DNA of 64,000 bases from Dioscorea cayenensis subsp. rotundata (taxonomy: Eukaryota > Streptophyta > Magnoliopsida > Dioscoreales > Dioscoreaceae). Numbering within the stretch: position 1 is the stretch's first letter; every line of letters starts with the position of its first letter. Below are positions 56,938 to 64,000 of this stretch, one piece after another. The notes beneath the pieces are model-generated. The model did not search any database, was not told the origin of the DNA, and saw nothing but the letters and a program-made list of their open reading frames with translations. The position numbers and the translations under genes are program-made. The stretch spans positions 27,583,916 to 27,647,915 of the forward strand of contig NC_052489.1 of assembly GCF_009730915.1 (NCBI RefSeq). The letters run 5' to 3'.

Positions 56938-59916
56938 TCAACTAGAAGAAAGCAATGCTTCTTCAATCCTCCTTATGACAATGCTAAGGCTATGACCGCT
57001 CTCTAAGGCTTTAACAGCAGCTTTATGTGCTTGTTTATGCCATTTTAGAAGATTGTAGGACTGAAGAACTGACCACCTCGCCTGATTCGACATCTGCTAT
57101 ATTAAACATAAAAAGAAAATGAAATGTTAGTTGGGCATGAATAGTGCCCATGGAGACGTGTTTAGGTGGATCAGACATGGACCTCTGCAACAGATAATGG
57201 AGGTTGTAACAGAAGACAGATACTTCGGAATAAATTTTCATCATTTTCTCCACCTTCGGCCTCTCCATAAACAAGAGCCTCAGCTGCAATTCCAGCAAAA
57301 AGTACGATGCAGTACCTATGTATTGCACTATTAACATATCAGTTATCAACCAAAGCTTATACAGTAGTCTAAGAAGATCCATATCTCCAGTTCTCCATTG
57401 CACAATCTAGACACCTATTGTCATACAAGTAGATCATACAAGCAATTGCAATATACCTGTCAAAAGCTGTACCACTAAGACGGCCCTCGGCAAGTTCATT
57501 CTCCAACTTCTCATCCCAAAACTGTGTTCCAGCCTGTACAAGAAAAAAAGGTTAGTTAATTCCTTGCACACTAACTCTGAATGAAGCCTTTAAAAGGCCA
57601 AACCCAAATTACCTTGGCTGGATACACAACAGTGTTGTAATAATAAATATATTTTATAACTTCACAAATATCGGTCTAATATGTAGCTACTCTCACGCCG
57701 ATGAAATAATAATGACTGGTCAATGTAAGGGAAAAAGGCCTTTATCTTGCTTTGTCAGTAATTTGACCCATATGTACTGCCTCACTTGCTAATAGCAAGT
57801 GAGATAATCAACTGTCAAATAGTAAATAGTATGTGATCAAATTATATTAGGCTATGGCCAAAGCATTCATCAGAACTCACAAGCACGGGCTGATATTAGG
57901 CATGGACTGGTATGGCAAGATCACTAAACCACATCAATACTATTCAATGTATTCATAAACATAATGGGGAAAATACATAACCTGGCCCTGAATGCCCATC
58001 TGCATCGCCACAATTGGATCCAATATAACACCGCGTATTGGGCAACCCATTAGATATGCTGCAAATGCATGTGATGGGATAAAATCAGTTTAAATATAAT
58101 TCTACATGTGCTTTGATGTTTATATTCAACAAGATGAAATTAATTCAGAGAAGAAGTAAGAAGTTAGGAATTTGGTTAATAAAGTTTTAATTTAGTTAGA
58201 GCCTTAAAAAAAAATAAAGAAATAGTTAAATCTAGTTAGAGATGCTACCAGTGAGAAGATGCCCAGCTTCATGGACAAGCACTCGTCTTCTGTAAGGAGG
58301 CCAAATACATGAAATTTGAGCAAGACAACTACCACCAAGAAAAATTGCATCTACTGTTGCTAATGTTAATATGACTGCCAAATTAGGTCGGATGTCTATT
58401 CCTTGAGAAAGCAGAAAAGATACACCTCCAAGGAATGCAATCAGTACGGCCCTAGAGCTTCCAGAAAGACCCCACTTCTCTGGAGACAGCTTAGATGCTG
58501 AAGGAAATCATATGAATCAGTTAGTGGTGAAATACAACAAATACCAAGAGCGAAAATTTCTGATTGAAGTCTTGTGGATATAACTAGTGAAAACTATATA
58601 ATCATAATGCCATCGAATTAGCGAAAATAATCATGTGTGCAAGGAAAAGCATGCAAACTGCTGGTCTTACAATTGTAAGCCACAAATACAAAGCTTCCAA
58701 AGTAGAATAGGAAACAAAAATAATAAAGAGCCATGAAAAACCATACCTTCCAAACCAGTTGATTTTTTCAAAACAGTTGGAGTGACATTTCTTGTTCCAT
58801 CTATCACTGCAATAAAAACAGGTATAAAAAAAATTAATATTTCAAAGCTAAAACAAGCATACCACAAAATCGAGATCATATAATAAGGATTTCAGATTAA
58901 AGGAAAAAACCAAAAAAGCAGTTACATATGAATGCCAGCAACATGGTTTTACATATTCCAGATTGAATGAAAAACTAAAATGACAGTACCATATGAATGC
59001 CAGCAACATGAGTTTACATGAACTATTTTGCAAAATTGAATCCAATTTACAATAGATAATATTCAACAAAAGTCTTATGACATGATATTCACGGTAGGTT
59101 TTCTTTGTTCTAAATGCATGCATGCCAGGCATTCGAGATAAAAGTTCATGGCCAACCAAAACATGAACATAGCAAACTGTCTAAATGGTATTTTGCCGCA
59201 TGAGAAATCAAAGCAAAGGAACACATGAAACTACTTTGGAAGATGAACTTATACAGGGTAAATATATAAAGAAGCAAAATGAGAGGAGCCATTGCTCATC
59301 ACTGATCAAATCAGAACACATTATAAAGAAAAGCTAGAATGGAAAGTGCACACCTTGACATTCATCGTAATAATAAGAGAAGTATACCCTTCAAATGAAC
59401 AATTTTGCAGGAAACCAACCAAGCATACACTAATTAAGGGTTTATAAGTATACTGAAAAAGTCGACCTCTTTTCAGGAAAAAATATCAAAGCAACATCTC
59501 AACAAAGAAAAGAAACCAGTACCAATGTTCTTGCATTTGCCAAAATTGGGCAAGAATCCACGATCCTGGAGGAAAGAATAAGCACTCCCAACAAGCCTCA
59601 TATCATCCGCATTCAAGCAGGTGTCGAGCACCTCCCAATCCCTCTCCGATCCAGCAAACCCCGGCGAGTAAGTAGTGACCGAATTCACAGATGAAGGACG
59701 AGAAGGAGAAGGAGAAGATTGGAGCTGGAGTGCTTCCATGGATTTCAAAAAACGTAGAGCCCGAGCAAGGTCCTTATCTCGTACGGCGTCCTCATACTCG
59801 CGCCATTCCTTTAGGGCTTTGATGATAGGCTTCCATTGCCTTCTTTTGACGGAACTCTTGGGAATTGGGGACGAAGAGAGGGCCAAAGATAGAGGTGAAA
59901 AGCAAGACGAAGCCAT
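56938..59916 (-). CDS. M41-type (FtsH-like) peptidase domain membrane protein, chloroplast
   Basis: Seven exons (59523-59916, 58747-58806, 58249-58497, 57982-58058, 57457-57533, 57183-57315, 56938-57093) encode 381 residues. A Ser-rich transit peptide is followed by a charged region (WKPIIKALKEWREYEDAVRD), two membrane segments (AVLIAFLGGVSFLLSQGI and LAVILTLATVDAIFLGGSCL), then a peptidase M41-like part with the zinc motif HEAGH in VLVHEAGHLLTAYLMGCPIR, and FDRYCIVLFAGIAAEALVYG. The AAA ATPase module of true FtsH is absent. I recall this as a conserved plant chloroplast family of unknown substrate. HExxH is intact, so proteolytic activity is possible. The start is the MASSCFSPLSLALSS methionine; an in-frame ATG 38 codons upstream lies in a repeat-like leader. 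Confidence 0.9.
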
Positions 59917-60030: not shown

Positions 60031-60883
60031 ATTTATATATATATATATATATATATATTTTTTTCATTGATATCCCTATAAGATATCATAATTTTAAGAA
60101 ACCATTCATTTTTTACTCATCCGTTTCATATTAATTATTACATTTGAGCTTTATGGCTCTCATTAAAAATTTTTAAAATATAAAATAAAAAATTATGATA
60201 ATATATTTTTATTTTTGTTAGAGTTATTTATTTTTATTAATAGGCATATTTTTTCTAAACTACAAGTATGGCAAAATTAAGGAAAAAAGATAATTAATAT
60301 TTATAGAACTCTTAAATGTGACATATAATTTTAAAAATTTATAAATATAAAAATTAATATAAAATAGAGGGAGTATGTGTTTCAGCCATTTTTAGATGTT
60401 TTTCATACTTCAAATAATAAAATTGATTAATATTTTAAAATTATAAATGCTTTTCATATAAAAAATGGAAAAAAAAACATCATATAATAAACAAAACAAT
60501 AAACAAAACAACAAATGAAGTTGCCACCTATTTGTAAAATTAACTAAAAACTTAGTATAATTTATCATATCAAACAATCAAATTAAATATTTTAGAGGTA
60601 AAATCATCATTTTTCTTTGATTATTGCCACACTTACAAAAAGAAGTCACGAGGTCAAATGAAGAAATTTTGAAGAACATATATATTTTTATTTTTTTAAA
60701 CATTTTATTGTTCAAAAGGCCAAATTTAAAAAAAAAAAAATCTAAACTTTCCATAAAAATATATATTTTTTTAAAGACAAAAATCCAAATGCTCTAAAGT
60801 CACAAATAAATCAAAAGATTCATGGGGTTGTCTATGCAAAAATCCTTTTATATTTAATTTTCATAAAACTAATTTTTAAAGTG
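60031..60883. other. AT-rich intergenic stretch
   Basis: Contains an (AT)n run at about 60032-60058 in the M41-like gene promoter and otherwise poly-A/T-rich DNA. No gene recognised. Confidence 0.5.
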
Positions 60884-61554
60884 GAAATTGCCAAAAAAAC
60901 CCTACAACTTTGCCAAATTGCCAAACAAACCCCCATAGTTTGAATGCCCAAAAACCCCTTCCTTTTCAACTCCACGATTTTTGAAACCCCAAAAGTACGT
61001 ATCGGCATTAAACGGAGTGTATTTAAAATTTTATGAATGAAAATGCCCTGACGGGAAGTCGTAGGGCTGCACCCATTTCGCGTGTGAGAGGAAGTGGGTG
61101 GGTTTTTCTTAGGCATTACAATTGCTTGTCTTCTCTCAACTCGCGACTCAGCTCAACTCGCGTCTCCAGCTCTTCTCTTCCCACGCGACTCTTCCCTTTC
61201 CACCGGCTCTCAAGAAGAAGTCCCGTGCAAGTATTCGACGATTTCGTCACTTTGCGATCTAAGGTATTCATTATGGTTTTTTTGTTAACTATTACATTAC
61301 GAAGAGACATTTTTCGGTTTTGGTTTGTGATTTTTGTTTTTGTTGGAAGACATTGAAGCTTTCGGGGGATTAATCAATTTGAGGGTTTTGTTAGTCTCGA
61401 GGGAGATGTCTCGGATAGGGTTTTTGTTTTGTTTTACATTTTCAAATCCGTGATATCTGATCGAAATAGTTTTCCGATTGTTGTGCTTTGTGTAATGTTT
61501 ATAATCTACGTTTACCCTTTCAGTTGATATGGTTGCGATTGTAAAAAAATGAGG

Positions 61555-61722
61555 TCTCCGTTTAAACAATGAGCTTTCTGGTTTAAGTTAGTTACGTCTC
61601 CGTTTAATTATTTGTATCTCTGCTTTAATAGTGTACGTCATCTGCTTAAAAAAATGATATCGGTGTTTAAGAGCCGAGTGTTAACCGTTTAACAAATTAC
61701 ATTTCCGCTTAACAATGTCGTT
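61555..61722. repeat. 21-bp GTTTAA repeat array, intron 1
   Basis: The TTTAA (or CTTAA) core begins at 61561, 61582, 61603, 61624, 61645, 61666, 61688 and 61708: eight units at a 21-bp period, one slip of 1 bp. A typical unit is TCTCCGTTTAATTATTTGTA. Only the CCGTTTAA part is well kept; the rest drifts. Confidence 0.9.
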
Positions 61723-61740
61723 TGTTATTGTCGCGAGCTT

Positions 61741-62561
61741 GTGATTATGGCGGTCAATCTAGTTAATGGGCGATGCTACTCGACACCCGAGTAGTGGAGA
61801 CCGCTGGGTCGAATTGAAAGTTCACATGATCCCTCGACACTCGGGAGATCATCCGAAGGACACCGTTCACGACAGTTTCATCGAGTTGGAAGCTGTATAC
61901 CAAGAGCGGGCCCTTCTTGACTCTCTATTGCAGAGATACGATAACCGCACCAATAAATTCAGGATCGGGGAAAGCATGCCGACTTTCGAGGGCTGAAGAT
62001 GTGGCAATCGTTCTTGGCTCGCGTTGCGATGGGGAGGCAGTCGTGTTTCAGAAGAAGAAAACACGGTCAACTTTCGAAGAGAGGTATTTATCGAAGACGT
62101 ACGAGAGACACGAGACTCCATCGGAGCACTCTTCGACGAACTCGTTGGGACGGAGGGAGAAGAGGAGAATTTTGCCAAACTATCGATGGTGTACCTCACG
62201 GTACAATCCTCTTCCCAAATACCTCCCTCGCTTTCGGTTCCTAACCGGATCGTTGATTATGTCGATGATCTACCGGAATGGGGCGCTACGCATGGGCGCA
62301 AGCGGCACTGAGTGGCTTATGGAGGACATACCACAAGCCGCTACCCGAGTGCAATCTAGATGCTGCGGGGAAGAAGACCAACACGGGTATGTTAAGGGTT
62401 GCACGGTGGCGCTTAACATCCGGGTTTTATGAGTCGACGAGGAACCGGAAAGAAAGTCCGTTTCACGAAGATCCCAAGGATCGTTTGTCTACGGTGAAAA
62501 ATACTTACCGGGAAGCAAGCGACTGATAGAGACGAGTTTGTCATCTCTCGAAGGAAAAGAG
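61741..62561 (+). pseudogene. plant mobile domain/DUF1985-like coding block, frameshifted
   Basis: Homology-like segments are scattered over all three forward frames: FIELEAVYQERALLDSLLQR and NKFRIGESMPTFEG (frame of 61766), RAEDVAIVLGSRCDGEAVVF and EWLMEDIPQAATRVQ (frame of 61917), and EVFIEDVRETRDSIGALFDE, NFAKLSMVYL and VDYVDDLPEW (frame of 62024). The motif order, LT.EDVA.ILGL..DG.. then a V.FDELV..EG segment and VDDL...Y.W, is that of plant mobile domain/DUF1985-type proteins carried by transposons; this is from memory. At least three frame changes make it a pseudogene as written. It ends at SSLEGKE|GTAATA, a good donor at 62562. Confidence 0.6.
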
Positions 62562-62598
62562 GTAATAATTCAAAAATATTTTTGTTTTAGCGTAGGCG

Positions 62599-62805
62599 TT
62601 AACGTTTAACCATATCATTTACTGCTTTAACTTTATTCATCTATCGTTTAACATTATAACTTACCGCTTTAACTTTGTTCGACTACCGTTTAAACTTTTT
62701 AGTTTAATGTTTAATTTGTTTGTTCTTATGCTTTAACACAATAGGTTATAACGTTTAAATATACTGAAAGTTACATGTGTAAATATAGTTTTTAATTGTT
62801 TAAAC
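62599..62805. repeat. 21-bp GTTTAA repeat array, intron 2
   Basis: TTTA cores at 62605, 62626, 62647, 62668, 62689 and 62710 are exactly 21 bp apart, followed by 62732 and 62754 (22 bp steps) and weaker copies to about 62805. A typical unit is TTACCGCTTTAACTTTGTTC. Confidence 0.9.
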
Positions 62806-62845
62806 TAAATAATTTCGCTAAGATTGTTTGCTTTACACATGCTAG

Positions 62846-63879
62846 TTTCTCGATCTGGTTCCGTGAATCTTGATGAAGAAGTATTTGTTCAGACGACCGT
62901 CGGTCGGATGCTATTGCTCCCGGAACCGCTTGCTCGAAAGCGAGATGAAAGGGCGACCTCTTCCTTGCGCTGCCGGACGCCGTTCTCCGCTTCGGGCCAA
63001 AAGCGCAGTCGTCCGAGGCGAGAGCCCTCCCACCCCGCCCGACCGTGGCTTCCCCCGACCGTGTCGGCCCCGACGTGGCGGCTCACGCGGCAGCTAGGCG
63101 AGGATGTCACTGCAACTCTCATGCGAGGCTTGCAGTTTTTGATGATCGGAGTTCCCTCGGCATTGTCGCTCGGTGGAGGCATTGGAAGGCGGTCACGATC
63201 GCGATCGATGCGCCTTCCCTTCAAACAAATGAAGCACCCGGGGACGGATACGCCCGTCGGAGTTCGACGAGCGAGGACATCATCGGGGTGACCCTTGAAG
63301 ACGGCCTCATTCAAGAAGCTTGCAAAAAGAGGAAAACAATAATGCCTCCGTCTCCACCGCGTGCGGTGACGATGAAATAATAAGCGGCACCATCGGCGGC
63401 GAGCACCATCGGCGGTGATGTTGTTAGCGTTGATGACATGCCCATCACGGTGAGGAGATTGAAGATGGCGCCCGAGTTTGCGCGGTGGAAAAAGATCGTC
63501 GACTACATTGTTGACGACATCATGCATCTGAGTGGAGCCGGGCCGACCGATGCTGGGCATCAAAGATGGACACAATCCATGAAGAAGAACAACCGAGACA
63601 ACGTTGTGTCTCGCGTTGATCTTTCGCTGCGTGGAATTCACCGTGGAACCAGCGGTCGACCGTGCTGCATCGAGGCGATACAATCCCACAAGAACAAGAA
63701 GCATGTAAGGAAGTGTCTCCCGTTGATCTTTGCCGTCGTGCCCCATTAAAGGAAGCGATAAAAAGTAGAAGAACTTGGGAAAGTCTTCATTCAAGAAGAA
63801 AAAAATACGTTGCCGATCGCGCCTCAATAAGTACGAGCGAGGAGTTGATAAGGATCTTCCTCAACTGCCCTATGGACAA
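62846..63879 (+). pseudogene. second GC-rich coding-like block of the transposon gene
   Basis: Flanked by an acceptor-like ACATGCTAG at 62845 and a strong donor GGACAA|GTAAGT at 63880, it behaves as an exon. GC-rich and CG-rich, with open stretches in several frames. Recognisable prose-like protein includes VSVDDMPITVRRLKMAPEFA followed by RWKKIVDYIVDDIM (63420-63520). I do not recognise a catalytic domain; a Ulp1-type protease would be expected further on in such elements. The 312-codon minus-strand frame across it is a product of composition. Confidence 0.45.
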
Positions 63880-63899
63880 GTAAGTTTGAAGTTTTTATG

Positions 63900-64000
63900 A
63901 TATTGTTTAAACTGTTTTAGTTACCATTTAAGTAGGAGCGTTAACGTTTAAAATTTACAGATAACATTTAACTTATAAGTGATACCCTTTAAATATTACC
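63900..64000. repeat. 21-bp GTTTAA repeat array, intron 3 (cut by window end)
   Basis: TTTA cores at 63906, 63927, 63947, 63967 and 63988, steps of 20-21 bp. Same unit type as in the two arrays upstream (GTTACCATTTAAGTAGGAGC, CGTTAACGTTTAAAATTTAC). Confidence 0.85.

Follow-up and report, generated by a model that had tools for sequence, protein, structure and literature searches.

A GYTTAA motif repeated about every two helical turns in the introns of a Mutator-like element of yam, a candidate docking array for a VANC-like anti-silencing protein

We analysed a 64,000-nucleotide stretch of the genome of the monocot yam Dioscorea rotundata (the window; G000:C19:27583916-27647915 in a 584-Mb genome), whose 3′ edge holds the beginning of a Mutator-like element (MULE). 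Both primers of the D. rotundata sp1 marker (PMC5604175) have exact matches in this genome, one at a single place, on contig C11, and the other about 0.85 kb from it in opposite orientation, as expected for white Guinea yam or a very close Dioscorea. The full element is 5,103 bp long and ends at the window-equivalent position 65983, outside the window; coordinates of its locus, L009, become window coordinates on addition of 60384. A search with a 501-bp query from the element gave 1,639 first-look candidates, and 40 places were scored. These were the window copy and 39 others with 90-94% identity over the query, giving at least 40 copies of the element. Ten copies, namely the window copy and nine of the 39 others, were fetched and compared. 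The ends are common to these copies with small variants (5′ GTGGAAATTGCC and 3′ AGTAATTTTCCC). A perfect 9-bp AT-rich target duplication was found in six of the nine copies that could be assessed, the window copy included; the 5′ end of the tenth copy could not be placed. Target duplications of 9 bp are characteristic of Mutator elements. Long terminal inverted repeats are absent, with 8 of 12 terminal bases pairing as an inverted repeat in a count by eye. The 5′ 9-bp flank of the c17 copy (L011) is identical to the 3′ flank of the c15 copy (L017), TAAAAATTA, which may be an AT-rich chance match or a trace of exchange between copies.

The element carries a gene on its plus strand, for which we predicted exons and introns (Table 1). 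The window's own exon open reading frames gave no significant Pfam match. A read-through made from the majority of the ten copies, for searching only, matched the plant mobile domain PMD (PF10536; E 5.3e-8, 32.9 bits with a cut-off of 34.9) and DUF1985 (E 0.0011, 19.3 bits with a Pfam cut-off of 35.1) in its N-terminal exon. In the last exons, two exon pieces taken from a single copy and put together as if spliced matched Peptidase_C48/Ulp1 (PF02902) above the cut-off with an E-value of 2.4e-8; the later piece alone gave an E-value of 0.0011, just below the cut-off. Furthermore, copy L027 harbours an N-terminal fragment of a MuDR transposase (PF03108; E 1.5e-7, above the cut-off) near its 3′ end. 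This remnant lies on the minus strand and the Ulp1 gene on the plus strand, in opposite orientation. Related fragments were found in five of the ten fetched copies, the window copy not being one of them. In the loci examined we found no full-length transposase for the window family, N-terminal fragments being all that was present.

In the two exons at 61763-63879, differences between copies (L011-L028) are more frequent near CG sites (0.087 vs 0.049 and 0.138 vs 0.074 per column) and near CHG sites (0.083 vs 0.059 and 0.152 vs 0.081 per column), and short scrambled indels accompany them. This clustering could result from methylation-driven mutation or from long-read base-calling errors on methylated DNA. 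Part of the frame breakage may for this reason be artefactual.

The original prediction, made from the letters of the window, had placed arrays of one short repeat in three successive introns of a transposon-borne gene. We located the cores of all three arrays at these places, and the element and its gene could be identified as described above. The core word is GYTTAA (GTTTAA or GCTTAA), also present as GYTTTAA. Array 2 contains irregular steps of 7, 14 and 45 bp. Array 3 is more degenerate; its G-cores (63905, 63946, 64007 and 64048) are spaced by 41 or 61 bp, and between them stand the variants ATTTAA or CTTTAA. Further cores are found 3′ of the gene, beyond the window, first in gene orientation and then inverted.

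Autocorrelation was scored against 500 dinucleotide shuffles per array. Peaks were observed at 20-22, 41-42 and 61 bp. Arrays 1 and 2 reached a z-score of 5.5 at lag 42 and array 3 one of 4.7 at lag 61; the inverted 3′ array (L009 4680-4920) is weakly periodic (best z 2.3). Nearest-neighbour motifs of the window element are on average 21.0 bp apart. Of the pairs no more than 28 bp apart in the window family, one has a distance of 7 bp, another of 14 bp, and all others of 20, 21 or 22 bp. The periodicity of 21 bp that had been claimed was therefore confirmed as such; the period is 20-22 bp and not a rigid 21 bp, and intron 3 is less regular. The arrays had also been said to lie just after good splice donors. 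These donors are kept in every copy that has the region, and arrays 2 and 3 begin about 42 and 25 bp after theirs, but array 1 lies about 295 bp downstream. A fourth donor, outside the window, reads GGTAAG in seven of nine copies and is altered in the window copy.

In the whole 5.1-kb element, GYTTAA occurs 25 times on the plus strand, compared to a mean of 4.3 and a maximum of 10 in 500 shuffles, and 13 times on the minus strand (shuffle mean 4.0, maximum 12). We counted the motif separately in coding and non-coding parts, some exon ends being inferred. The 2,756 bp of non-coding DNA contain 29 plus-strand and 15 minus-strand motifs, where 5.9 and 4.7 are expected. The 2,350 bp of exon-like blocks contain one and none, where 0.8 and 0.9 are expected. 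The repeat is thus nearly absent from the exon-like blocks, as had been noted, but since its count equals what composition predicts, the exons are unenriched and not depleted.

Table 1. Features of the Mutator-like element in the window (window coordinates)
Feature	Position	Strand	Remarks
9-bp target-site duplication ATTTTTAAA	60872..60880	.	identical 9-mer at both ends of the window copy, the second beyond the 3′ end
Mutator-like element, 5′ 3.1 kb	60881..64000	+	boundaries common to the fetched copies
Intron 1, leader intron (predicted)	61264..61762	+	donor kept in 10/10 copies; putative acceptor CTAG immediately upstream of ATG 61766
Array 1	61560..61712	+	eight GYT(T)TAA cores, starts 61560-61707; all seven intervals 20-22 bp
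Exon, PMD/DUF1985-like N-terminal region	61763..62561	+	frame broken in the window copy; majority read-through of 10 copies
Intron 2 (predicted)	62562..62845	+	donor kept in 10/10 copies; putative acceptor
Array 2	62604..62804	+	GYT(T)TAA cores 62604 to 62798, mostly 20-23 bp apart
Exon, linker region of Ulp1-type gene	62846..63879	+	frame broken in the window copy; predicted extent
Intron 3 (predicted), with array 3	63880..64000, running to ~64100	+	donor kept in 9/9 copies having the region

A second element family, 76-79% identical to the first, was found at the c17 copy (L011-L012), and its matching introns bear matching arrays. We aligned the two families, defining the cores on the window family; the test covers this one pair of families. 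The cores of intron 1 kept 46 of 49 bases and the spacers 87 of 142 (one-sided p 4e-6). In intron 3, 22 of 24 core bases were kept versus 88 of 172 spacer bases (p 8e-5), and in intron 2, 45 of 63 versus 102 of 188 (p 0.01). When the cores were defined on the second family, the values were 47/49 versus 86/161 for intron 1 and 52/58 versus 95/146 for intron 2. Over the pooled introns, conservation is higher in cores than outside for each of A, T and G, and for C not clearly so (4/8 vs 33/77). The two families differ in how many units intron 2 holds, in steps of about 21 bp. The second element starts at L011:8968, about 2.7 kb from the end of the window-family copy, and runs into L012. Arrays of both orientations extend over about 6.5 kb of it, and its 3′ end was not found.

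A third array-bearing element, L037 (C1:24064-27107), has a 3′ end, GTAAACAGTAATTTTCCC, that resembles GTGAACAGTAATTTTCCC of the window family, and an interior that is unlike it. It contains several GTTTAA arrays with a spacing near 20 bp, plus a GC-rich insert. No open frame of 230 amino acids or more was found in L037, which is apparently non-coding and possibly a target-only family. Motifs are spaced on average by 21.0 bp in the window family, 20.2 bp in the third family and 21.3 bp in the second, where the stretch measured may overrun the element. In these three unlike families, motif pairs less than 29 bp apart lie at 20-23 bp, the exceptions being 7 bp (three pairs), 12 bp (three pairs) and 14 bp (one pair), and none was counted at 8-11 bp. 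Among 6-mers recurring 19-23 bp apart in the three families, GTTTAA and words overlapping it top the list.

Furthermore, we searched the genome for triples, that is, three cores at 20-22 bp. In total, 26,242 were found (12,861 + 13,381), against 254 (143 + 111) for a reversed-pattern control. The matches listed, which all come from the opening 2.8 Mb of contig C1 and include L037, form about eleven clusters with unlike spacers; by rough extrapolation there would be about two thousand array-bearing loci genome-wide, if this part of C1 is typical. Within the 64-kb window, no triple was found outside the element. Ten 10-kb loci beside the fetched copies were also searched: nine had no triple, and the tenth is the locus that holds the second element.

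In Arabidopsis, VANC21 binds YAGTATTAY, which forms dense arrays of one orientation in the introns, intergenic DNA and terminal non-coding DNA of VANDAL21, and targets of VANC6 carry AGTTGTCC or AGTTGTAC (PMC5735166). According to the same paper, VANC proteins, which have a DUF1985 domain, cause target elements to lose DNA methylation; the repeats are gained and lost. The VANB and VANC introns of VANDAL transposons carry tandem VANC-binding motifs (PMC5735166), so the statement in the original prediction that no described family has this feature does not stand. VANC genes that bear Ulp1 are known as KIU genes, and KIU-carrying VANDALs hypomethylate their own kind (2026 review, PMC13317346). 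In KI-MULEs (KAONASHI), the Ulp1 gene is arranged opposite to mudrA (PMC2528002). The anti-silencing activity of VANC was tested in Arabidopsis (PMC5735166, PMC10398659).

We think it fairly probable that the yam arrays are docking sites for a VANC-like anti-silencing protein made by the element family itself, clustered in introns and elsewhere in non-coding DNA. The binder would most likely be the PMD/DUF1985-Ulp1 product (KAONASHI, VANC-like) of the gene whose introns house the arrays. Such a protein would sit cooperatively on the GYTTAA cores, on one face of the helix and every two turns, and, like VANC in Arabidopsis, would clear the element of DNA methylation or keep methylation off it, making the element genes expressible. 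Selection would keep the cores in active lineages, and spacers would drift as the number of units rose or fell. That a protein binds the array along one face of the helix had already been proposed, and on the sequence comparisons it appears to be the best reading, because the cores are kept, the spacers diverge and the spacing is near two turns. A second proposal, that the introns arose from one repeat, was rejected, as arrays also occur in non-coding DNA 3′ of the gene and in the apparently non-coding L037. The arrays of L037 fit a target that would need only the protein in trans.

Several observations weigh against this interpretation. The PMD match falls slightly and the DUF1985 match well below the Pfam cut-off, both on a read-through, and among the ten copies none has all coding exons open, as judged by eye. 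The scarcity of the motif in exons is no more than composition predicts. In the comparison of the two families, the aligner may favour core matches, and intron 3 kept only 22/36 core bases versus 88/184 in spacers when the second family served to define the cores. Among window-family copies, cores show no clear advantage in conservation over spacers: core vs spacer differences are 0.071 vs 0.061 in intron 1, 0.041 vs 0.041 in intron 2, 0.125 vs 0.128 in intron 3 and 0.100 vs 0.146 in the 3′ array. This similar decay adds no support; it fits neutral drift of dead copies after insertion, with selection acting in active lineages. In addition, related Arabidopsis families differ in motif and three unlike yam families share one, unlike the coevolution that has been described, and the available text of PMC5735166 makes no mention of a fixed two-turn spacing for VANDAL arrays.

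Core conservation and helical spacing point to protein binding without naming the protein. The arrays might thus be bound by the MULE transposase, by another element protein or by a host transcription or intron enhancer factor, and serve transposition or expression, and their presence in the 3′ non-coding part and over much of L037 would suit such a binder as well. We nevertheless hold it to be unlikely, given that the arrays follow the introns of an Ulp1-type gene, as VANC targets do. A Mutator transposase would be expected to bind the ends of its element, whereas the arrays lie inside theirs, at distances from the ends that range from hundreds of bases to kilobases. Moreover, two other MULE transposase genes with long open frames (L020:3915-6681 and L028:988-1968), both with a MuDR DNA-binding domain and the former with a SWIM zinc finger, lie in loci free of triples.

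Non-functional tandem repeats that had expanded in AT-rich introns, through slippage or unequal exchange, and been carried along by the transposon would account for the 21-bp steps in intron 2, for the like decay of cores and spacers within the window family and for exons that lack the word no more than composition predicts. Slippage alone would not, however, preserve a 6-base core amid otherwise unlike units. Between families that are 76-79% identical the cores are kept more than the spacers, as are A, T and G individually (C not clearly so), and the same core at nearly the same spacing recurs where the spacers are unlike. We therefore consider this origin improbable, and slippage was rejected as the main account, since between the two families cores are kept and spacers drift. 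A spacing of 20-22 bp would also agree with nucleosome positioning or with 21-nt small RNAs in place of a sequence-specific binder. Nucleosome phasing predicts a periodicity of about 10 bp, but in none of the three families counted were motifs paired at 8-11 bp. Small RNAs would presumably match poorly between units, as the spacers diverge. This explanation seems to us very improbable.

Judged by its sequence, the yam element has the overall KAONASHI/Ulp1-VANC anatomy of VANDAL-type MULEs. Like VANDAL21/VANC21 and VANDAL6/VANC6, it is a Mutator-like element with a putative DUF1985-type region and non-coding tandem motif arrays of varying repeat number (PMC5735166), and the motifs form dense same-orientation arrays in its non-coding parts with exons at background level. 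It differs from both in its motif (GYTTAA vs YAGTATTAY or AGTTGTCC/AGTTGTAC), in its near-fixed spacing of about 21 bp and in its monocot host. Because the window family, the 76-79% identical family and L037 share GYTTAA at 20-23 bp, we did not file the element as a VANDAL21-type member. KAONASHI/KIU elements resemble it in having an Ulp1 C48 domain in a MULE opposite mudrA and have been described as anti-silencing VANDAL members (PMC13317346, PMC2528002); this comparison is one of anatomy, and the yam host is a monocot. The Ulp1-MULEs of rice, melon and grapevine likewise have a captured Ulp1 domain, and the available parts of PMC2528002 and PMC13317346 mention no intron motif arrays for them.

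What sets yam apart is one motif and nearly one spacing common to three unlike families, the tightness of that spacing and the monocot host. The subterminal repeats of CACTA (En/Spm) elements are also a short non-coding transposon motif bound by an element protein, and lie near the element ends. The yam arrays differ in lying mainly in introns and 3′ non-coding DNA, in an element of another superfamily (9-bp duplication). Searches of the mainly open-access literature, which did not extend to a broader survey of KIU coevolution reportedly titled for eudicots (EMBO J 2022, PMC9016345), listed no paper that describes shared-motif, ~21-bp arrays of this kind.

A wider reading, which we put forward tentatively as possible and short of probable, is that the Ulp1-VANC-type MULEs of yam share one anti-silencing address, GYTTAA every two turns, read by a cooperative PMD-Ulp1 protein over perhaps two thousand loci in several unlike families, non-coding ones included. 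One protein acting in trans could then open much of the MULE population, and yam would have a common, spacing-coded variant of VANC in a monocot, in contrast to the family-private motifs of Arabidopsis. If several families do share one address, the idea of a private motif per family that spares the host needs revising, and with a roughly hundredfold excess of triples over the reversed-pattern control, how the genome lives with it becomes a concrete question. Such arrays bear on how long targets are distinguished from host DNA by a protein of this kind, and a near-fixed two-turn array in a monocot would let tests separate the parts of core, spacing and copy number in target recognition.

Upstream of the element, an apparent host gene lies on the minus strand at about 58800-59915, with its start codon about 1 kb upstream of the transposon end, as judged by eye.
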